A DNA stretch of 36,046 bases from Vicinamibacteria bacterium (GTDB lineage: Bacteria; Acidobacteriota; Vicinamibacteria; Vicinamibacterales; JAENWD01): assembly GCA_016650245.1 (NCBI GenBank), contig JAENWD010000174.1, forward strand, positions 1 through 36,046, written 5' to 3'. Every line of letters starts with the position of its first letter. Position 1 is the stretch's first letter. Below the pieces are notes generated by a model. The model saw only the letters and a list, made by a program, of their open reading frames with translations. It was not told the origin of the DNA and did no database searches. A program made the translations under genes and the position numbers. Of the stretch, positions 6,654-21,450 are shown piece after piece.

Positions 6654-6689
6654 TCAACCCGGCCCAACGTGACCCAACCCGGTCAACCG
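6654..6689. repeat. degenerate CAACCCGGY tandem repeat
   Basis: gtcaacccggcccaacgtgacccaacccggtcaaccg; overlaps stop (6683-6685) of the response-regulator gene; related to 27564-27608. Confidence 0.5.
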
Positions 6690-8053
6690 TTTTCGAGTCT
6701 GTATTTGGCGAGGTAATAACTCAGCGCCCGCTGGCTGATTCCCATCAGCTCGGCCGCGTCCTTCTTCACCCCGCGCGCCTGCTCGAGCGCCTGACGCACG
6801 GTCTCGCGCTCGGCCCACTCGAGGTTCTGGTGCAGGTGCAGCGCCGGCAGCGCCGGCGTCGTCGACACCGGCGGCGCCAGAATCGAGATGTCGTTGACGG
6901 TCAGCACGCGATTGTTGCTGAGCACGACGGCGCGCTCGATCGTGTTTTCCAACTCGCGGACGTTGCCCGGCCACCCGTACTGCTGCAGGGCAGCGAGCAC
7001 GCCGTCTTCCACGCGGTCGATGGGCTTGCCAGTTCGTTGTGCATGCTTGGCAATGAAGTGTTCGGCCAATACGGGGATGTCTTCCCGCCGATCGCGCAGC
7101 GGCGGCAGGTGCACGGGGATGACGTTGAGACGGTAGAACAGATCCTCCTGGAACCGGCCCTCTCCCACCAACTGCCGCAGATCCCGGTTGGTGGCGGCAA
7201 TCACGCGGACGTCCACGCGCTCGGTGCGCTCGGATCCAAGCGGCTCGAACTCCCGCTCCTGAAGCACGCGCAGCAGCTTGGGCTGCACCGCGCTGGGCAT
7301 GATCCCGATCTCGTCCAGGAAGATGCTGCCGCCGTTGGCAAGGGCGAACCGGCCCTTCTTGTTGGTGGTCGCGCCGGTAAAGGCTCCGCGCACGTGGCCG
7401 AACAGCTCTGATTCAAGCAGTGTTTCGGGAATCGCCGCGCAGTTGATCTTGATCAGCGGCATGTGGCGCTGCGCGCTGCGGTCGTGGATGGCGCGGGCCA
7501 CCAACTCCTTGCCCGTGCCCGTCTCGCCGGTGATGAGGACCGTGCTGCGCGTCTCGGCGACGCGCTCGGCGCGATGGATGACGTCCTGCATCAGCCGGCT
7601 CCGGCCGACGATCCCGTAGTGGTTGAACTCCTCGTCACGCTCGGTGAGCAGGTACCGGTGCTGCGTGCGCAGCCGCTGATGCTCGACAGCACGGCTCACC
7701 GTCACCAGGAGGTGTTCGATCTCGAATGGCTTCTGGAGGAAATCGAGTGCGCCAAGCTTCATGGCCTCGATCGCGTCGTTCACGGTGGCATGCGCCGTCA
7801 TCATCACGATCTGCGGCCGGTCCGGTTCCGGGACGGTCGCCACGATATCGCGGATGAGCTCGAGGCCGGTGAGCCCCGGCATCAGGTTGTCGACGACCAG
7901 CACGTCGACTCCGCCTTCGGCGATGAGGCTCCGTGCCTCGCGCGCATCCCCGCGTTCCACCACGCGATGGCCCTCATCTCGCAGCGCGCGGCCCAGCGTC
8001 TTGAGAATCTTCTCCTCGTCGTCCACCAGCAGAATCAATCCGGTAGTGGTCAT
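6683..8053 (-). CDS. sigma-54-dependent response regulator, NtrC family
   Basis: Receiver (ILLVDDEEKILKTL...VLVVDNLMPGLTGLELI), AAA+ GETGTGKELVARAIH, GAFTGA loop, C-terminal Fis-type HTH. Confidence 0.96.
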   Translation of the reverse strand: MTTTGLILLVDDEEKILKTLGRALRDEGHRVVERGDAREARSLIAEGGVDVLVVDNLMPGLTGLELIRDIVATVPEPDRPQIVMMTAHATVNDAIEAMKLGALDFLQKPFEIEHLLVTVSRAVEHQRLRTQHRYLLTERDEEFNHYGIVGRSRLMQDVIHRAERVAETRSTVLITGETGTGKELVARAIHDRSAQRHMPLIKINCAAIPETLLESELFGHVRGAFTGATTNKKGRFALANGGSIFLDEIGIMPSAVQPKLLRVLQEREFEPLGSERTERVDVRVIAATNRDLRQLVGEGRFQEDLFYRLNVIPVHLPPLRDRREDIPVLAEHFIAKHAQRTGKPIDRVEDGVLAALQQYGWPGNVRELENTIERAVVLSNNRVLTVNDISILAPPVSTTPALPALHLHQNLEWAERETVRQALEQARGVKKDAAELMGISQRALSYYLAKYRLENG

Positions 8054-9813
8054 AGCGGCAGGACGATCTCGATAGTCGTGCGGCCCGGTGCGGTGGCCAC
8101 GCCGATGGTGCCGCCGAGGCCTTCGACGATGTTGCGCGCGATGGGAAGGCCCAGCCCCGTGCCCGTGCGGCGCGTGGTGAAGTACGGCTCGAATACCTGT
8201 GACAGGTGCTCGGGTGTGATTCCGGTGCCCTGGTCGCTCACGCGCAATCGGACGTGGCTGTCATCGGGCCGGTCCAGCGTCAGCGGGACCGCTGGTGCCT
8301 CGTGCCCGTTCACCGGCCGCGGGGTGGCGCGCTCGTGCGCGTCGACGGCCTGTCGCGCGTTGGAGAGCACGTTGACCAGCGCCGTGCGCAGCCGTTCCGG
8401 GTCGGTGGACGCCACCAGGGGCGCGTCGGGCATCTCGAGATCGATGGCGGGACCTGCGCCCACGGCGGCGGCGGTGGCCGCGTCCTGGCACAGCCGCACC
8501 AGATCGGCCGGCTCGCGCAGCACGCTGGGCGGCTTCGCGAAGTCGAGCACGTCGTGCACTGTGCGGTTGAGCCGATCGACTTCCTCGTCGATGTCCTTCA
8601 CCGCTTCGCGGATGTCGGCAGCCGGTGCCTCGGGCCGCAGGCCTCGCAGCGCCGCCTTGATGATCATCAACGGATTGCGCACCTCGTGTGCGATGACCGT
8701 CGACAGCCGTCCCAGCGACAGCAGGCGTTCCTTTTGCGCGGCCTCGCGCTGAAAGCGCGCCACCGAATCGGTGAGCGTGTTGAACGTCGTCGCCAGAAGG
8801 CGCGCGTCCTCGTCCTGCCACGCCGACGGCTCGCGCAGCGGGATCTTCCGCGTCAGGTCGCCCGTCGCGGCCACCTCGCGCATCGTCGCCGTGATGGCGG
8901 CCAACGGACGGGTGATCGTGCGCGCGACGGCGTAGCTGAGTCCGATGGCCAGCAGCACCGCCGTGGCGGCGGCCAGGGCGAGCGCCGCATACACGGTGCG
9001 CAGGAATCCCAGCCGTTCGGTGCGCGACTGCAGAACCAGCGCCGCCGGCACCGCCGCTCCCGCGACCGACGCCGCGTCGCTGCCGTCGCTGGCCCCGAGC
9101 GGCTGGGCGCGGCCGACGTACTCGGACTCGCCGATCAAGACGCGCGACACCCCGCGCCTGTTCAGCAGCGGCTGCAATGCACGCCACGTCGCCTGCGGCA
9201 GCGTCGCAGCCCGCACGGTGCCGTCGAGCGTGAAGGCGACCTCGCTGCGTGTCGCGCGCTTGAACCGGTCGGCCATCCGCGCATCGAGCCGCACGCCGAC
9301 GCTCAGCGTGCCGAGCACGTCCGGGCTTTCAAGGCCGATGGCAATCGGCACCGTGGCCACCTGCAGCACGCCGCCGGTGTCCGGCAGAAACTCCACCACG
9401 TCCCGGCCACCCAGCGCCGCGGTCACCGCGTTGGGCGTCGGCGCGCCCGCACCGGCCGGCACGGCGGCCAGCAGCGCGCCGTCCCGATCGGAGATCACCA
9501 GCAGGTCGGCGGTCACCTGCCGTCGGTAGTCGGCGGCGATGGGCGCCACGGTCTCGGCATGGCGCGTCTCGACCGCGCCCTTGAGCTTGGGCAAGTCGGC
9601 CAGCAGATGGGCCGTGAGCAGTGATTGGGCGCTCAACGCCCGCCGCTGCTGGTCCATCAGGTCGCCGGCCTCGGCAAGACCGCGCGCCAGCTCCAGTTCG
9701 GCCTCGTGCGTCGCCCGCAGGCCGACGACGTAGACCGCCACGCCGGTAGTGACGATCGCCAGCAGCGAGGCGGCGATGAAAATGCGATTCGTGAGCGAAG
9801 AGAGCAGCGTCAT
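8050..9813 (-). CDS. sensor histidine kinase
   Basis: Start MTLLSSLTNRIFIAASLLAIVTTGVAVYVVGL; HAMP-like region; H-box VIAHEVRNPLMIIKAAL; ATPase DQGTGITPEHLSQVFEPYFTTRRTGTGLGLPIA; overlaps the regulator start. Confidence 0.93.
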   Translation of the reverse strand: MTLLSSLTNRIFIAASLLAIVTTGVAVYVVGLRATHEAELELARGLAEAGDLMDQQRRALSAQSLLTAHLLADLPKLKGAVETRHAETVAPIAADYRRQVTADLLVISDRDGALLAAVPAGAGAPTPNAVTAALGGRDVVEFLPDTGGVLQVATVPIAIGLESPDVLGTLSVGVRLDARMADRFKRATRSEVAFTLDGTVRAATLPQATWRALQPLLNRRGVSRVLIGESEYVGRAQPLGASDGSDAASVAGAAVPAALVLQSRTERLGFLRTVYAALALAAATAVLLAIGLSYAVARTITRPLAAITATMREVAATGDLTRKIPLREPSAWQDEDARLLATTFNTLTDSVARFQREAAQKERLLSLGRLSTVIAHEVRNPLMIIKAALRGLRPEAPAADIREAVKDIDEEVDRLNRTVHDVLDFAKPPSVLREPADLVRLCQDAATAAAVGAGPAIDLEMPDAPLVASTDPERLRTALVNVLSNARQAVDAHERATPRPVNGHEAPAVPLTLDRPDDSHVRLRVSDQGTGITPEHLSQVFEPYFTTRRTGTGLGLPIARNIVEGLGGTIGVATAPGRTTIEIVLPL

Positions 9814-10499
9814 CGATGCGGGAAGTCCAGCTCGACGCCACGCGACTCGGCGCTCACCTGCACGCTGCGGGTGTCGCGAATCGCGCCTTCCACCCACGCC
9901 ACCAGAGTGTAGGTGCCCGGCGGCACGTGGTCGATCTGGTATCGTCCCTCGGCGTCGGCGACACTGAAGAAGCGGTGGGTGAACACCAGGATGAAGGCGT
10001 TCATGTGCGAGTGGATGTCGCAGAACACGCGCACGATGCCCGGACGATCGAAGCGGATCGACTTGGAGTGCCCGGCGGCATAGCGGCCCAGGTCGAAGCG
10101 CCGGGCCTTGGACAGCGAGAACACGTTGTGGTACGTGCGGTCGCTGTTGGGAAAGTCCACGGTCGTACCGACGGTGATGGCCAGCAGGTGTGGGACAAAC
10201 GTCTCGTGGCGCTGGTCCAGGGACACACGGCCGCCCTCGCGATCCTCGAACGCGCCCTTTGGCGCGGTCTCGAAGTACACCACCGCGCGCCGTCGTTCGA
10301 CGACGTCGCGCACGGGGCCGTCGCCCAGGTCGCCGGAGGAGGGCCTGCGCTCGGTGAGCGAGGTCGTCCGCGGCATCTCGACGCGTCCGCGCAGGGTCAC
10401 GCCCCGTGTCTGGGCGGGACCCGGTGTCGGCCGCGCCGCCAGCACGAGGCCGACGCCCGTCATCACGACGGCCCACCGCAGGCGCGCGCTCAGAACCAC
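9810..10499 (-). CDS. secreted cupredoxin-like protein with C-terminal carboxypeptidase-regulatory-like fold
   Basis: GTG start giving MVLSARLRWAVVMTGVGLVLAARPTPGPAQT; VGTTVDFPNSDRTYHNVFS, VRVFCDIHSHMNAFILV (potential His/Cys/His/Met ligands), GRYQIDHVPPGTYTLVAW. Confidence 0.82.
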   Translation of the reverse strand: MVLSARLRWAVVMTGVGLVLAARPTPGPAQTRGVTLRGRVEMPRTTSLTERRPSSGDLGDGPVRDVVERRRAVVYFETAPKGAFEDREGGRVSLDQRHETFVPHLLAITVGTTVDFPNSDRTYHNVFSLSKARRFDLGRYAAGHSKSIRFDRPGIVRVFCDIHSHMNAFILVFTHRFFSVADAEGRYQIDHVPPGTYTLVAWVEGAIRDTRSVQVSAESRGVELDFPHR

Positions 10500-11776
10500 A
10501 CCGTCACCTGCAACGCCGGCAGCGTGGACGACCGCACCGTGCCGCGCGACCGATCGTTGTGTTGCACCGTGCCGCGGACAATCAGATTGCGCGTCGCTGA
10601 CCACGCCACGCCGCCTTCGACCCGCGTGACCGGTGCGTCCCACGGCAGTGTCTGGTAGCTGCCGCGCACCTGGCTGAACGACAGACGGTCCACGCGCGCC
10701 GCGGCAGTCACGCCGGGCGCGATGCGATAGCGGCCCTCGACCGAGACGCCGGTCGACCGCAGCGGTTCCTCGATCGACGGCGTGCCAATGGCGGGCAGCC
10801 GCCACCGCGCGGCGACCATCTCGGCACGCGCCAGGAAGTGCCCGAGCGAGTACTCGGCGTCGGCGCCCCAGGTCTGCTGATGGTAGCGGCCAGTGGTCGC
10901 CGAGGCCGTGGTGTAGGTGTAGCCGGACCCGGACGAGCTGGCGGGCACCGGCACGGCCAGGTTGTCCGCGAAGAATCGCCCGTCAGCGAACGACCCGCCC
11001 AGGATGAGCCCGGTCGCCGGCCGGACCGCCAGGCGCATGGACACCTGCGGCCCTCCGTTGGTTGTTCGCGCGCCGGGACTCGACAGCGTGCCGGCGGTGA
11101 CGGCTGCCGCGACAAAGACGCGCTGGTGCTCGCCACCCACTCGCGCCTGCACGCCGGTGTCATACCTGAAGGCGGTGGTGAGTGGCACGCCTCGCGCGTA
11201 TCCGGGGGTGCCTACCGAATACGACGCCCGCCAGCCGGCCGACCGCGCGTAGATCAGCTCGTCGGCGCTGGACGGCACGGCGTCGGTTCGCAACACCGTC
11301 AGGTACTGCCACGCAAGCGGGTAGCCGATGAGGACGTTGTCGTTGGCGTAGATGCGACGGCCCGCGGCGCCAAACACAGGGGGAATCCGGCCCGCCTGGA
11401 TGTCAAACGGCCGGTCCTTCCAGGGCCTGACCCGGACGTAGGCGGCAAACGGCGTCGCCGTCCAGGGCCCGCCGCTCGTGTCGCCCTCGGCGCGCAGTTC
11501 CGTCACCAGCGCGATGCGCTCGACCGGCCGGAACGACGCCGTCACGCCCAGTCGCAGCAACTGCAGCGCGCTGCGCTCGTAGTCGGTGTAGTTGAACGTT
11601 CCCTCATCGTCTGGGGCGACCGTGGCGGTGACTTCGCCGCCCAGCGTCAGCCGGCCACCGGCCAGCGACACCGTCTCCTGGGGGAGTAACTGCGCGCAAA
11701 CCGGAGCCGCTGGCAGCAGGCCCAAGAGGGCGAGCCCGCCGAGTCGGCGGATAAGGGACATGGCGTTCACCGACAC
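10490..11776 (-). CDS. predicted outer-membrane beta-barrel/porin-like protein
   Basis: Signal-like N-terminus SLIRRLGGLALLGLLPAAPVCAQ; IQAGRIPPVFGAAGRR; C-terminal aromatic strand LPALQVTVWF. Confidence 0.75.
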   Translation of the reverse strand: MSVNAMSLIRRLGGLALLGLLPAAPVCAQLLPQETVSLAGGRLTLGGEVTATVAPDDEGTFNYTDYERSALQLLRLGVTASFRPVERIALVTELRAEGDTSGGPWTATPFAAYVRVRPWKDRPFDIQAGRIPPVFGAAGRRIYANDNVLIGYPLAWQYLTVLRTDAVPSSADELIYARSAGWRASYSVGTPGYARGVPLTTAFRYDTGVQARVGGEHQRVFVAAAVTAGTLSSPGARTTNGGPQVSMRLAVRPATGLILGGSFADGRFFADNLAVPVPASSSGSGYTYTTASATTGRYHQQTWGADAEYSLGHFLARAEMVAARWRLPAIGTPSIEEPLRSTGVSVEGRYRIAPGVTAAARVDRLSFSQVRGSYQTLPWDAPVTRVEGGVAWSATRNLIVRGTVQHNDRSRGTVRSSTLPALQVTVWF

Positions 11777-15392: not shown

Positions 15393-15507
15393 GCATTGCA
15401 GATTGACGATTGCAGATTACGGTGTTTCCCCGAGGCGGTCGGATTCATCCCGGCCTTCGGATGAGCGCCCGTAATCGTCAATCGTCAATCTCCAATCGTC
15501 AATTCCC
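15393..15507. repeat. inverted pair of heptanucleotide arrays around a GC-rich core
   Basis: Left GCAGATT-GACGATT-GCAGATT (15398-15418); right AATCGTC-AATCGTC-AATCTCC-AATCGTC (15473-15500); core contains GGATTCATCCCGGCCTTCGG. Confidence 0.8.
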
Positions 15508-15969
15508 AGCGCGCCGCCTCAGCCGTTCTGCCCGTCGTGCACGCGCCCCCTCGGCGCGCTGGCGTTCCCCGTCGCTCTCGAGCAACAGCGGCGGCACCGC
15601 CCGGTGGCCGCCCTCTTGATCCGCCGTCACGAACGTCAGAAACGCGCGGCTGGTCATCTGCCGCACGCCGGTCAGCGTCTCTTCCGAGAACACCTCGACC
15701 TCAACTTCCATCGACGTCGTGAACGCCGCGTTCACCCTGGCGCGCAGGATGATCAGGTCGCCCACCTTGATGGGGTGCAGAAACTGCAGGTCGTCTACGG
15801 CGGCCGTCACGACAGGCACGCGCGCGTGGCGGAGGGCCGCAATCGCGCCGGCCATGTCGATCAGGTGCATCACCGTGCCGCCCAGGATGAACCCCAGCGG
15901 GTTCGCGTCGTTTGGCAGCACGACGTGGACGGTTTCTGTGAATGACTCGGACGGAGACTTGGGAGTCAT
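15499..15969 (-). CDS. acyl-CoA thioesterase, hotdog fold (YciA-like)
   Basis: VLPNDANPLGFILGGTVMHLIDMAGAIAALRHARVPVVTAAVDDLQFLHPIKVGDLIIL. Confidence 0.92.
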   Translation of the reverse strand: MTPKSPSESFTETVHVVLPNDANPLGFILGGTVMHLIDMAGAIAALRHARVPVVTAAVDDLQFLHPIKVGDLIILRARVNAAFTTSMEVEVEVFSEETLTGVRQMTSRAFLTFVTADQEGGHRAVPPLLLESDGERQRAEGARARRAERLRRRAGN

Positions 15970-16075: not shown

Positions 16076-19000
16076 TTAGAAGTCGTACCCGATCCACACC
16101 TTGAACTGCGCGCGGCGGAACTCCTGGCTGCCGCCGACCGAGGCGTACAGCGCGTCTTCCCACTGGCTGTTGAAGGTGGTCCGCCACGCCCAGTCGAAGT
16201 GGATGGGGAAGCCCAGCGCGAAGGTCTCGAGGCCAAAGCCGTAGGAGGCTTTGCCGTCGCGCAGACGGAACCCGGTGATGTCTACCGGCGGGCCGTAGAT
16301 GGGAATCGGCGCGCCGGTGCCCGGGTCCACGTCGGACCCCAGATACGGCGCGTACGACTCGGTCTTGCTCGTCGAAAACTGATACGGCTGGTCGTTGAAG
16401 TACGCGGCACCAGTGCCGAAGAAGAACACGCCGCGCACGCCGCCCATCACACCCAGCGGCGTGAGCATCGCCTCGATCAGCGGGAAGCGCAGCTCGGCGT
16501 TCATGAAGTAGACATTGTGCCCCGTAAACGCGAGGTAGTCGTACCCTCGCAGCTCCGAGTTGCCGCCAAAAAATGTGTAGTCCGGCGCGTTGCCCCAACT
16601 CTTGAACATCTTGCCCCGCAGCGCCAGGAGTCCCGATCCGCCCAGGCGGATGTACTTGCGCACGTCGATGTCGCCGGTTTGATACGACAGCGTGTTGCCG
16701 ATCTTGGGCGCCACTTCGTAGGACAGCCGCATCGTGCTGCCCGACAGCGGCCCGAACTCGCGGAACACCGTCGTCTCCTGCACGAAGGCCACGCCCAGCG
16801 GCACCGAGGTCCCGCTACGGAACAACTGCGTGCCGTAGAGCTGTTCCTGGTAGTTGTTCGAGTACTCCTCCAGCGCAGGGTCGTTGTAGTGCTCGTTGTA
16901 GTTGATGACGCTGGTGGAGAGCTCGATTCGGCGATACCGGTCGAACGGGTAGATGCCAAACGCACTGCCGCCGCGCAGTGAGCGCGTGGCGATCGCGTTG
17001 TCGCGGTCCAGGAAGAGTGGGTTGTAGGCCGGGTCGTAGAAGTACGATCCGGTGCCGTAGAAGAAGGACTCCTGCGAGAAGCCCTGCAAGGCGTACTGGA
17101 ACCGCCGCGACAGGTTCGTGTAGTTGACCGAGAACGTCCGGTACTGCGAGATCGACGCCGCGAAGACGTTGAACTGCTTGTCGCCGAGCACGTCGCCGAA
17201 GGTGACCTGTGTGCCGCCAAACAGGTCGCCGCCGCTGGTGACGCCGACGTTGACCGGCGGACGCCCGTCCAGGAACATCTTCTCGAACGTGCCCTTTTGC
17301 TTCTGGTTCTCTTTCACCAGCGTGTGCGTCATCGGCGGCTGGAAGTCCACCATCTCGCCCCCGGCCTCGCCGAAGTCGCTCGCCAGGGCCGTCTGGATCG
17401 GCTCCTTGCGCTCGAGCGTGTGCACGCCCCACTCGTTCTTGTAGTAGGTCACAAAGGCGATGCGGCTGGTCTTGTCGCCGGGCAGCAGGACCGGCGAGAC
17501 GTTGCCGGCGACCGCGTCGGTGTACTGGCGCAGCTCGCTGGTCTTCAGGTCGAGCGTCCAGATGTTGAAGATGTTGCCGTTGCGCGCGACTTCAGGTTCG
17601 ATCGGCTGCGTGGGGTTCACGGCCGTCGACGGGAACACCAGCGTGTGGTCGTCGATGAACTTGGCCTGGCCCTCGTCATGCGTGCCGAAGGTGAGCTGCG
17701 TCTTCTTCCTGGTGTCCAGATCGACGCGGAACAACTTCTCGTTGCCGCTGATGCGGGCCAGATAGACGACCGACTTGCCGTCGGGCGCAAACGTCGGCGC
17801 GTAGTCGGCAAACGCGTCGTCGGTGAGATTGGTGATGTCGCCGGAGGTCGTGTCGAGCCGGAAGATGTCGCCGATGGCGTTGCGCAGGCCTGAAAACGCC
17901 ACGAAGCGGCCGCCAGGCGCAATTGACGGCGACTCGGGCTCGTCCACGGTCTTCATCGGGAAGCGCTGCTTGACGTCGGTCGAGACGACGTCTTGCAGGA
18001 TCAGCGTCTTTTCCTTCTCCGTCCGCACGAAGTACGCCAGCTGATCGCCGACTGGCGACCACGACATCCACGACACGGTGTTCCACCGGCCGCCGGGTGT
18101 GGAGATGTAGGCAAAGCCCATCCCCTGGTCGAAGCCCTTGGTCAGGTTGCGCACGACCGTGCCGTCCTTGGTGGAGAGCAGCACGATGTCGAGCTCCTGC
18201 TCGCGCCGGTTGCCGACCATCGCGGCCATCAGGTCGCCCGACGGCGCCGGCTCGATCGACAGCACCGAGGTGTACTTCGTCTTCTGCGGGTTCGGCGAGA
18301 GGTTGCGCCCGTAGTCGGCCGGACGTTCCTTGTCGCGAAACGCCTTGAAGCGATCCTTCAGGTACTTCTCGTACTCCTGGTCGAACTCTTCGGGCTTGAG
18401 CTGGAACGCTTCTTCGTACGCGTCTTCGCCGCCGCCGATCACGCTCTTGCGCAGCGCGAAGAGGAACTGGCGGATGCCTTCCTTGCCCCACTTGGACTCG
18501 ATGAACTCGAAGACGGTGTGGCCGAGGTTGTAGATCAGGCGCGGGTTGCTGAAGCCGCCATAGCCTTCCAGTTCCGACATCTTCGGGACGGTGTCGGCCA
18601 CCGCTGCATCGCGCACCGTCATCAAGTCGATGGGACGCCAGATGCCGGTCATGTAGTCTGACAGGCCTTCATTCACCCACAGCGGCACGCTGCGGCGGAT
18701 GAGCGACTGCGGGATGATGTCGAACTCGAAGATGTGCGTCAGCTCGTGGACGACGAGGCGGTAGAGCAGGTCGGGCGGCTCGTCGATGGGCAGCACCATG
18801 CGATCCCGAAACGGCTCGGCAAAGGCGCCCACGCCTTCCTGGGCCGCGCCCGGAATCACGTTCTGCTGCTGGAACTCGCTGCTGGTCTTGAAGAGGATCA
18901 GTGGAATCTTGAACGCCAGGTCGTGCTTCAGATCGGCGCTGATCTGCTGATACGCGCTCTCGGCATATCCGGCCACCCGCTCCAGATGCTGCTCGATCTC

Positions 19001-19192
19001 GGGGTAATAATAGATCTCGAAATGATCGGTGGTGTAGATGTGCCACCGGAAATTGTCGTACCGGATCTGGTTCTTGCCGAAGTACGGAACGTATGGCGTC
19101 TGGGCCACGGCCGACAGGGTGCTGCTCAGAAGCAGCGCCGCCGTCAGCCCGGTCAGACGTCCCGTCAGGCAGCGCGTCGTGCGCGTGCGCAT
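16076..19192 (-). CDS. multidomain surface protein: gluzincin (peptidase MA-like) domain, TolB/PD40-type beta-propeller, C-terminal Omp85/BamA-like barrel
   Basis: Start MRTRTTRCLTGRLTGLTAALLLSSTLSAVAQ; VVHELTHIFEFD plus WVNEGLSDYMTG; propeller repeats (SIAPGGRFVAFSG, TFAPDGKSVVYLA); GGNSELRGYDYLAFTGHNVYFMNAELRFPL; ends KVWIGYDF. Confidence 0.85.
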   Translation of the reverse strand: MRTRTTRCLTGRLTGLTAALLLSSTLSAVAQTPYVPYFGKNQIRYDNFRWHIYTTDHFEIYYYPEIEQHLERVAGYAESAYQQISADLKHDLAFKIPLILFKTSSEFQQQNVIPGAAQEGVGAFAEPFRDRMVLPIDEPPDLLYRLVVHELTHIFEFDIIPQSLIRRSVPLWVNEGLSDYMTGIWRPIDLMTVRDAAVADTVPKMSELEGYGGFSNPRLIYNLGHTVFEFIESKWGKEGIRQFLFALRKSVIGGGEDAYEEAFQLKPEEFDQEYEKYLKDRFKAFRDKERPADYGRNLSPNPQKTKYTSVLSIEPAPSGDLMAAMVGNRREQELDIVLLSTKDGTVVRNLTKGFDQGMGFAYISTPGGRWNTVSWMSWSPVGDQLAYFVRTEKEKTLILQDVVSTDVKQRFPMKTVDEPESPSIAPGGRFVAFSGLRNAIGDIFRLDTTSGDITNLTDDAFADYAPTFAPDGKSVVYLARISGNEKLFRVDLDTRKKTQLTFGTHDEGQAKFIDDHTLVFPSTAVNPTQPIEPEVARNGNIFNIWTLDLKTSELRQYTDAVAGNVSPVLLPGDKTSRIAFVTYYKNEWGVHTLERKEPIQTALASDFGEAGGEMVDFQPPMTHTLVKENQKQKGTFEKMFLDGRPPVNVGVTSGGDLFGGTQVTFGDVLGDKQFNVFAASISQYRTFSVNYTNLSRRFQYALQGFSQESFFYGTGSYFYDPAYNPLFLDRDNAIATRSLRGGSAFGIYPFDRYRRIELSTSVINYNEHYNDPALEEYSNNYQEQLYGTQLFRSGTSVPLGVAFVQETTVFREFGPLSGSTMRLSYEVAPKIGNTLSYQTGDIDVRKYIRLGGSGLLALRGKMFKSWGNAPDYTFFGGNSELRGYDYLAFTGHNVYFMNAELRFPLIEAMLTPLGVMGGVRGVFFFGTGAAYFNDQPYQFSTSKTESYAPYLGSDVDPGTGAPIPIYGPPVDITGFRLRDGKASYGFGLETFALGFPIHFDWAWRTTFNSQWEDALYASVGGSQEFRRAQFKVWIGYDF

Positions 19193-19513
19193 ACAGGTCT
19201 CCTCGCGGGCAGTAACACGGAGTCGAGGGGTCGAGGTCTGAATGGATTGCATCTTACTGTGACTGAGACATGGCCGTAAACACGCAGGATCCGCGCCTCG
19301 TGAAACACGACACGAAAGGCTCGAAGCAAGCCCCGTACCTCCGGCTGGCATTGATCAGACGGCCGAATTCGTCGAAAGGTCTGGGGACTTGTCATCGATT
19401 CAGGAAACTCGCTACGGAGGACCAGGACAGGCCGGGCAGCGCCGCCCGGGAATAACCCCGGAGCGGCAGGGGTTTACACTGCTAACGGCTGTAGAAGCTC
19501 CCACGGATGTAAC

Positions 19514-20095
19514 GTGTTCGGTTTTCCGTCCGTCGCCAGCACGTCGGGTGACCAGCTGTCGTTTGAAGACGAGGCGCTGGCTCAGGCTGATGCTTTGTAC
19601 CGGACGGCGCTGCGGGCCACCCGCAACCCGGCCGAGGCCGAAGACCTCGTCCAGGACACGTATCTGAAGGCCTTCCGCAACCAGGGCCGCTTCGAGCCGG
19701 GGTCCAACGTGCGGGCCTGGCTATTCACGATCCTGATGAACACCTGGCGCAACCGGCGGCGCGATGCCGGACGCGACCCGGTGGCGGTGGCAAGCGAGGT
19801 GGTCGAGCAGGCCGAGGCACGACCGGCATCGGGCGGCTCGCCCGAAGACCTGCTCCTGCGCGACACGCTCGGGACCGATCTGAAGGCTGCGTTGGACCAG
19901 ATGCCCGACGCGTTTCGCGAAGCCGTGTGGCTGCGCGACGTCGACGAGTTCACCTACGCCGAGATCGCCGCGATGCTCGAGGTGCCCATCGGCACGGTGA
20001 TGTCGCGCATCTCCAGGGGGCGGCGGCAGTTGTTCGAGAAGCTGACAGCCGGGGGTGACGCGATGCGTCCGGCAGAGGCGGCCGGCCGGGGATAA
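19514..20095 (+). CDS. ECF-type RNA polymerase sigma factor
   Basis: ALRATRNPAEAEDLVQDTYLKAFRN region 2; FTYAEIAAMLEVPIGTVMSRISRGRRQLFE region 4. Confidence 0.94.
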   Translation: MFGFPSVASTSGDQLSFEDEALAQADALYRTALRATRNPAEAEDLVQDTYLKAFRNQGRFEPGSNVRAWLFTILMNTWRNRRRDAGRDPVAVASEVVEQAEARPASGGSPEDLLLRDTLGTDLKAALDQMPDAFREAVWLRDVDEFTYAEIAAMLEVPIGTVMSRISRGRRQLFEKLTAGGDAMRPAEAAGRG

Positions 20096-20100
20096 CTCCG

Positions 20101-20868
20101 GTGGGCACGATCATCAGAATGGCACACTGCACAGACATCGACCGGCTCGTCACAGGCTACGTGGACGGCCTTGCCAGCGCCGCTGAGCGCGACGACGTGG
20201 AACGGCACGTGCGCCGCTGCGCGGCGTGCGACCGACGGGTCACCGCCGAGCGCGCCGCCCGGCAGATCGTGCAGCGGCACGCCGCCGATCTGAGGTCCGC
20301 GACCGCGCCACCCGCGCTGCGCGCCCGGCTGGCCACCCTGGCAGCCCAGGCTCGGCCCCCTCAAGCGCGCGTCGTCCAGCGCTGGCTGCTGCGGACGGCC
20401 ATGGCGGCCTCGCTCGTGCTGGGCTGCGGGCTGTGGCTCACCGCGGTCGTGACCCGGCAGTCCACGACGGTGCTGGCGGCGCAACTGACCGCCGACCACG
20501 TGAAGTGCTTCCTGACGAACCACGACGACGGCATGCTAGACCCACGGCGCGCGGCCGACTACCTGCGCGAGCGATACGGCTTTGCGGCCCGCGTGCCGGC
20601 CAGCGACGCCGACATCGGCCTGCGACTGGTCGGGGCGCGCCGCTGCATCACGGGAAAAGGCACCAACGCCCACATGCTCTACACCTGGCAGGGCCAGTCG
20701 GTGTCGCTCTACATGCTCCCGGGCGTGGGGCACACCCGGCAGGCGCACGACGTGCTGGGGCACACCACCGAGATGTGGTCAGGGCATAATGGAACCTACG
20801 TGCTGGTCATGCCAGACGGCGGGCACTTGACGCCGCTGACCGACTACATGCGCCAGGCCACCAGGTAG
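20101..20868 (+). CDS. anti-sigma factor with zf-HC2-like N-terminus and one TM segment
   Basis: CTDIDRLVTGYVDGLASAAERDDVERHVRRCAACDRRV; TM MAASLVLGCGLWLTAVV; directly after ECF gene. Start could be ATG at 20119. Confidence 0.85.
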   Translation: MGTIIRMAHCTDIDRLVTGYVDGLASAAERDDVERHVRRCAACDRRVTAERAARQIVQRHAADLRSATAPPALRARLATLAAQARPPQARVVQRWLLRTAMAASLVLGCGLWLTAVVTRQSTTVLAAQLTADHVKCFLTNHDDGMLDPRRAADYLRERYGFAARVPASDADIGLRLVGARRCITGKGTNAHMLYTWQGQSVSLYMLPGVGHTRQAHDVLGHTTEMWSGHNGTYVLVMPDGGHLTPLTDYMRQATR

Positions 20869-20891
20869 GAAGGATCTTTAGGAAGGATCTT
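20866..20891. repeat. tandem duplication of TAGGAAGGATCTT (2 x 13 bp)
   Basis: taggaaggatctttaggaaggatctt immediately before ATG at 20893; includes the upstream stop codon. Confidence 0.85.
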
Positions 20892-20892
20892 G

Positions 20893-21450
20893 ATGTCACG
20901 AGTGGTCCGCTGGGTGATTGCCGCCGCCGCCCTCACGGCGCTGGTCTACGCGTTGGTGCCGAGCCTGCCCGCGCCATCCGAACTGGTCGGCGCGGGCGCC
21001 AGGGCGGCCGGAAGCGACGCCTGTCCGGCCGACGCCAAGAAGGCCAATCTCGACTTCACCGTCAACGACATGAACGGCAAGTCCGTGGCGCTCGCCTCGT
21101 TCAAGGGTAAGGTCATCGTGCTGGACTTCTGGGCGACGTGGTGCCCGCCGTGCAAGGCGGAGATTCCCGGCTTTGTCGAGTTGCAGGATGCCTATGGCAG
21201 CAAGGGTCTGCAGGTGGTGGGCGTGTCGGTGGACGACCCGGCCGACAAGCTCCCGCCGTTTGCCGCCGAGTTCAAGATGAACTACCCGGTGCTGGTGGGC
21301 CTGGGCCGCGACGACCTCCAGGACGCGTACGGGCCGATGTGGGGCATTCCGACGACGTTTCTGATCAGCCGGGACGGCAAAATCTGCCGCAAACACTCGG
21401 GGCTGGTGGGCAAGGACCGCTACGAGAAAGATATCAAGGCCCTCCTGTAG
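20893..21450 (+). CDS. TlpA-family thiol-disulfide oxidoreductase
   Basis: VIVLDFWATWCPPCKAEIPGFVELQ; GIPTTFLISRDGKI; N-terminal TM/signal. Confidence 0.94.
   Translation: MSRVVRWVIAAAALTALVYALVPSLPAPSELVGAGARAAGSDACPADAKKANLDFTVNDMNGKSVALASFKGKVIVLDFWATWCPPCKAEIPGFVELQDAYGSKGLQVVGVSVDDPADKLPPFAAEFKMNYPVLVGLGRDDLQDAYGPMWGIPTTFLISRDGKICRKHSGLVGKDRYEKDIKALL

Follow-up and report, generated by a model that had tools for sequence, protein, structure and literature searches.

A conserved Acidobacteriota protein combines a predicted gluzincin protease, a TolB-type propeller and an Omp85 barrel

Omp85 proteins are usually described with POTRA domains and act in assembly or transport. A gene of a Vicinamibacteria bacterium raises the question of what such a barrel may do when a zinc protease and a propeller precede it instead, and on which side of the outer membrane these domains lie. 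The original prediction, made from the sequence of the window (the whole stretch of DNA analysed, 36,046 nucleotides), had read one polypeptide as a gluzincin protease, a beta-propeller and an Omp85-like barrel. It had likened this arrangement to type Vd secretion, with an effector fused to its own barrel, and had suggested that the protease is displayed or tethered at the outer membrane. The gene and the parts of its product are as follows:

16076..19192, minus strand: protease-propeller-Omp85 gene, an open reading frame of 1038 amino acids plus stop, with homologues in 39/40 relatives from the same order
19103..19192, minus strand: signal peptide, residues about 1-30, cut between LSAVA and QTP, read from the sequence
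18287..19102, minus strand: predicted gluzincin (Peptidase MA) domain, residues 31-302, from Pfam (59/59 members), the structural model and Foldseek
18734..18748, minus strand: zinc motif HELTH, residues 149-153, with H149, E150 and H153 invariant in 60 sequences
18668..18670, minus strand: E175, presumed third zinc ligand, in WVNEGLSDY, invariant in 60 sequences
17384..18286, minus strand: TolB-like propeller, residues 303-603, from AlphaFold2 strands and from TolB matches by profile and fold
17255..17383, minus strand: linker of 43 residues, 604-646, mean identity 0.76, pLDDT about 70-88
16079..17254, minus strand: 16-strand Omp85-type barrel, residues 647-1038, from AlphaFold2, Foldseek and hhalign
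16526..16567, minus strand: Omp85 L6 motif GGNSELRGYDYLAF, residues 876-889, between strands 11 and 12, with L6 fixed at 26 residues
16478..16501, minus strand: NAELRFPL, residues 898-905, in strand 12, with E900, L901, R902 and P904 invariant

The reading frame is open up to 19351, and the ATG at 19192 is preceded by a GAGGAG-like site. Third-position GC is 0.90, which fits a real gene in a GC-rich genome. The signal peptide is poorly conserved (0.26) and the mature region after the cut is conserved (0.75); residues 1-40 have low pLDDT in the AlphaFold2 model. For the whole protein the model has a pLDDT of 83.6, and its PDB matches are TolB and BamA. Conservation is highest in the protease (0.80), compared with 0.71 in the propeller and 0.70 in the barrel. 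Every motif named in the original prediction was located in the 1038-residue frame, as was the aromatic residue at its end (F1038, in WIGYDF), and the three domains were recovered in the proposed order by Pfam, conserved residues, the AlphaFold2 model and Foldseek. Sequence and model together indicate that this is a real, conserved, three-part outer-membrane protein composed of a gluzincin domain, a TolB-type propeller and an Omp85 barrel.

Within the order, homologues are mostly 57-68% identical over their full length, usually with one close copy per genome. The presence of the gene in 39/40 relatives rules out a chance fusion or an assembly artefact. Across the phylum, 74/149 sampled genomes contain matches, mostly of the same organisation; those outside the order are mostly 32-47% identical, some genomes also encode a more distant paralogue (25-31% identity), and a few of the weakest matches are TolB-like propellers only. 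Close homologues of this Acidobacteriota protein were also found on contigs titled Acidimicrobiia (L059, L098 and L109), which raises the possibility that these genomes are mislabelled. The genome under study itself encodes a second protein built on the three-part plan but very divergent in sequence (L147, G000:C427, minus strand, 1008-residue frame), with HEYAH...WQIEG, a propeller-like middle and a predicted Omp85 barrel that contains LRGFQDD and NLEARVPL. Another Omp85 match there lies within an open frame of about 2345 residues (L138 and similar, G000:C281) that has counterparts of 2200-2360 residues in several relatives.

A 633-residue protease-propeller homologue that lacks the barrel is encoded on plasmid pSR116 of Salinibacter ruber (L187, 2408-4309), a hint that the barrel is an added anchor, separable from the rest. 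This homologue is annotated as a basic secretory protein-like protein and adjoins a serine carboxypeptidase-like gene. Separate Omp85, TolB and M48 homologues exist in the genome under study and in its relatives, so the fusion protein adds to them and does not replace them. It follows that the protein is neither the TolB of this organism nor the sole Omp85 protein or sole zinc protease there.

The zinc-site residues are invariant in an alignment of 60 sequences that includes one Gemmatimonadota member aligned at 30% identity, in line with the gluzincin-like reading of HELTH and the downstream NEGLSDY (residues 174-180). HExxH is also retained in distant homologues and paralogues. Y221 and H225 are invariant too, and may supply the transition-state residue. 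Pfam's Peptidase_MA_2 was matched over residues 93-275 (E 1e-5) at 25.9 bits in the whole protein and at 29.5 bits by the isolated domain, against a gathering cut-off of 32.4 that is a library threshold and not a biological feature. All 59 of the 59 protease-domain sequences match this family, and no family fits better. The isolated N-terminal domain was modelled with a pLDDT of 82, and Foldseek placed M9 collagenase peptidase domains as its best matches (E 3e-6), followed by M1 aminopeptidases and an M30 peptidase. The M9 peptidase domain is thus the closest solved fold, although identity to it is 11-17% and the protein has no other collagenase domains. A zinc site in the N-terminal domain had been set beforehand as a decisive test; the ligand residues are conserved, and the model combines HExxH and a downstream Glu with a thermolysin-like, gluzincin fold. 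Invariant zinc ligands and fold matches to M9 and M1 enzymes together predict an active-type gluzincin, with proteolysis as its presumed activity.

The middle of the protein forms about six four-stranded blades in the AlphaFold2 model. TolB is the best match by profile (E 5e-27) and by fold (E 3e-10), and PD40 of Pfam was matched at E 0.006, in agreement with the TolB/PD40-like middle first proposed. There are also weak matches to the propellers of DPPIV, S9 and tricorn peptidases. TolB itself, of the same propeller family, occurs on its own as a soluble protein of the periplasm and has a homologue in these genomes, whereas the propeller here is fused. The linker that follows is ordered, conserved and almost without helix in the model. 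The supposed lack of an obvious POTRA domain was likewise upheld: no POTRA family of Pfam was matched at E<=1 in the whole protein, and the 43 ordered residues between propeller and barrel are too few for such a domain. The protein therefore differs from classical Omp85 members, in which one or more POTRA domains precede the barrel.

The count of 16 strands comes from our interpretation of the DSSP string for the AlphaFold2 model, which does show the C-terminal barrel whose absence would have told against the prediction. In BamA, the L6 motif of Omp85 lies between strands 11 and 12. The LRGY of the present protein, an instance of the [VIL]RG[FY] pattern of Omp85 barrels, sits in the same place. 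Foldseek matched the barrel to BamA (E 7e-10, TMt about 0.56-0.61) and to Sam50 (TMt 0.64). In hhalign, a profile of 55 barrels matched Acidobacteriota BamA-type barrels with a probability of 97.7 (E 9e-12) over the whole domain; controls gave a probability of 1.0 for the reversed BamA alignment and 0.1 for the protease profile. The likeness is visible only to profile-profile and fold comparison: a BamA profile did not match the single protein sequence, a PDB sequence search with the barrel profile gave no match, and PF01103 of Pfam matches 1/55 barrel members, only the Gemmatimonadota one. With GGNSELRGYDYLAF and NAELRFPL, the BamA/Sam50 fold and the profile match, the Omp85-type barrel proposed for the C-terminus is well founded.

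The family PF00149 is one of calcineurin-like phosphoesterases and not of proteases. It defines the 'Metallo' class of the 2014 Omp85 survey by Heinz and Lithgow (PMC4104836). Among the groups of that survey is a WD40-Omp85 subfamily whose members have a TolB-like propeller, lack POTRA domains and are likened to a fusion of BamA and BamB (PMC4104836). Our protein shares the C-terminal Omp85 barrel, the TolB-like propeller directly before it and the lack of POTRA; in contrast, it has a gluzincin before the propeller, whereas the text of the paper names the propeller only (PMC4104836). As far as that text goes, the uncharacterised WD40-Omp85 subfamily is the closest known kind, and the protease is an addition to it. 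No description of the exact protease-propeller-Omp85 architecture was found in the literature searched.

The surroundings of the gene were compared over 79 loci, many of them short, and its promoter region over 48 intergenic regions:

19514..20095, plus strand: ECF sigma factor, divergent neighbour (Pfam; 49/79 loci)
20101..20868, plus strand: zf-HC2 anti-sigma-like protein (Pfam; 40/79 loci)
20890..21450, plus strand: TlpA-like redoxin (Pfam; 55/79 loci)
15499..15969, minus strand: 4HBT hotdog thioesterase, downstream on the same strand (Pfam; 36/79 loci)
19251..19280, minus strand: sigma70-like promoter of the gene, TTTACG-N18-TAAGAT (TAAGAT in 33/48 intergenic regions)
19449..19476, plus strand: GGAATAA-N14-GGGTTTA, candidate promoter for autoregulation of the ECF gene, towards which it points (29/48 regions)

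In loci of the order the gene points away from the divergent ECF, zf-HC2 and TlpA-like set and is followed by the thioesterase and a ferredoxin; none of these neighbours was seen in the short flanks of the homologues examined from outside the order. None of the conserved neighbours in the 79 loci is specific to outer-membrane protein biogenesis. TAAGAT, in relatives most commonly part of TTGCAG-N17-TAAGAT, was expected in 0.6 of the 48 regions in mononucleotide shuffles, and the ECF-type motif, found in the window and 28 relatives, in 0.1; the genomes compared are related, and common descent therefore adds to both counts. No second copy of GGAATAA-N14-GGGTTTA occurs in the whole genome at zero mismatches. 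Since the single ECF-type promoter that was detected points the other way, these data give no support to stress or ECF control of the gene, and the simplest reading of these motifs is that the gene has a housekeeping-type promoter while the ECF operon regulates itself. Elsewhere in the window, a sigma54-type response regulator and histidine kinase pair lies with an unassigned 428-residue frame (6683-11776, minus strand). In up to 18 related loci, homologues of these genes follow the protease-propeller-Omp85 gene downstream at a distance of several kb.

Outer-membrane barrels usually have long loops outside and short turns inside. In the present barrel the loops after odd strands have 5, 3, 23, 29, 8, 26, 49 and 23 residues, with variable length in most of the long ones, whereas the turns after even strands have 5, 5, 4, 2, 3, 2 and 2 residues and never vary. 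This asymmetry places the start of strand 1, and hence the linker, on the periplasmic side, and the loop lengths in sequence and model suggest that the N-terminal domains lie there also. Omp85 barrels are normally plugged by L6, and the N-terminal domains could reach the surface only if the linker ran through such a plugged barrel; a linker of 43 residues could in principle thread a barrel. Type Vd-like display, in which the barrel would carry its own protease-propeller to the surface to degrade external protein, would account for the order of effector and barrel and for the closeness of the N-domain fold to M9 collagenases, which act outside cells. Against it stand the topology parity, the ordered and conserved linker and the fact that the protease is the best-conserved part. 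PlpD, the prototype of type Vd, was shown to be a homodimer with a periplasmic enzyme domain, and passenger delivery to the surface is disputed even for it (PMC11116518). Like the present protein, PlpD joins an enzyme at the N-terminus to an Omp85 barrel at the C-terminus; it has a patatin lipase and POTRA, whereas the protein here has a zinc protease and a propeller, and neither Pfam nor the model gave the patatin-like lipase domain or the POTRA of type Vd. The type Vd logic of the original prediction therefore fares poorly, on topology parity, linker, the PlpD precedent and a near-universal gene that is no variable effector. Tethering at the outer membrane is likely; surface display we consider improbable, and less likely than an anchored protease facing the periplasm.

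The best-supported reading is that of a zinc protease anchored to the outer membrane, facing the periplasm and using the propeller as an adaptor. We hold it with modest confidence because of the loop and turn asymmetry, the conservation of the protease, the near-universal gene with its conserved sigma70-like promoter and the precedents of PlpD and BepA. BepA is a periplasmic zinc protease that degrades stalled outer-membrane proteins at BAM (PMC13067283). As the closest functional analogy, it too is an HExxH protease that works in the envelope close to an Omp85 barrel; however, it belongs to M48 and is a separate protein, whereas here a Peptidase MA-type protease is covalently linked to the barrel. 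By this analogy the protein probably has a role in the quality control or maturation of envelope proteins. The barrel would anchor propeller and protease on the periplasmic side of the outer membrane, the propeller would probably serve as a docking surface or gate placed between protease and barrel, and the protease would cut envelope or outer-membrane proteins beside the membrane. The whole would be a built-in analogue of a BepA-like protease paired with a BAM-like platform.

It is doubtful that the protein is instead a dedicated translocase or assembly factor, whose barrel would insert or export a specific client that the protease trims. Assembly or transport is the conservative expectation for any Omp85 barrel in the 2014 survey (PMC4104836), and the L6 and strand-12 motifs are retained; on the other hand, there is no POTRA to receive clients, and no client gene consistently adjoins in the 79 loci, where the neighbours are the ECF operon, thioesterase and ferredoxin. 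Still less probable is a nutritional peptidase of the outer membrane, with the propeller gating peptides, the protease shortening them and the barrel as a pore. Propellers gate substrates in DPPIV- and tricorn-type peptidases, and the weak propeller matches to this kind of enzyme noted above would suit such a role, but L6, the normal plug, is retained and uptake genes are not consistently conserved nearby in the 79 loci.

Compared with the periplasm-facing anchored protease, a broader proposal is more tentative: that the protein stands for a housekeeping class of Omp85 spread throughout the Acidobacteriota, whose barrel proteins would carry out proteolytic quality control themselves and have propeller and protease instead of POTRA. 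A protease and propeller in the place of POTRA would show how the Acidobacteriota, a large phylum represented here mostly by soil and groundwater metagenomes, couple outer-membrane proteins to proteolysis, and the WD40-Omp85 subfamily would thereby gain a testable enzymatic function.
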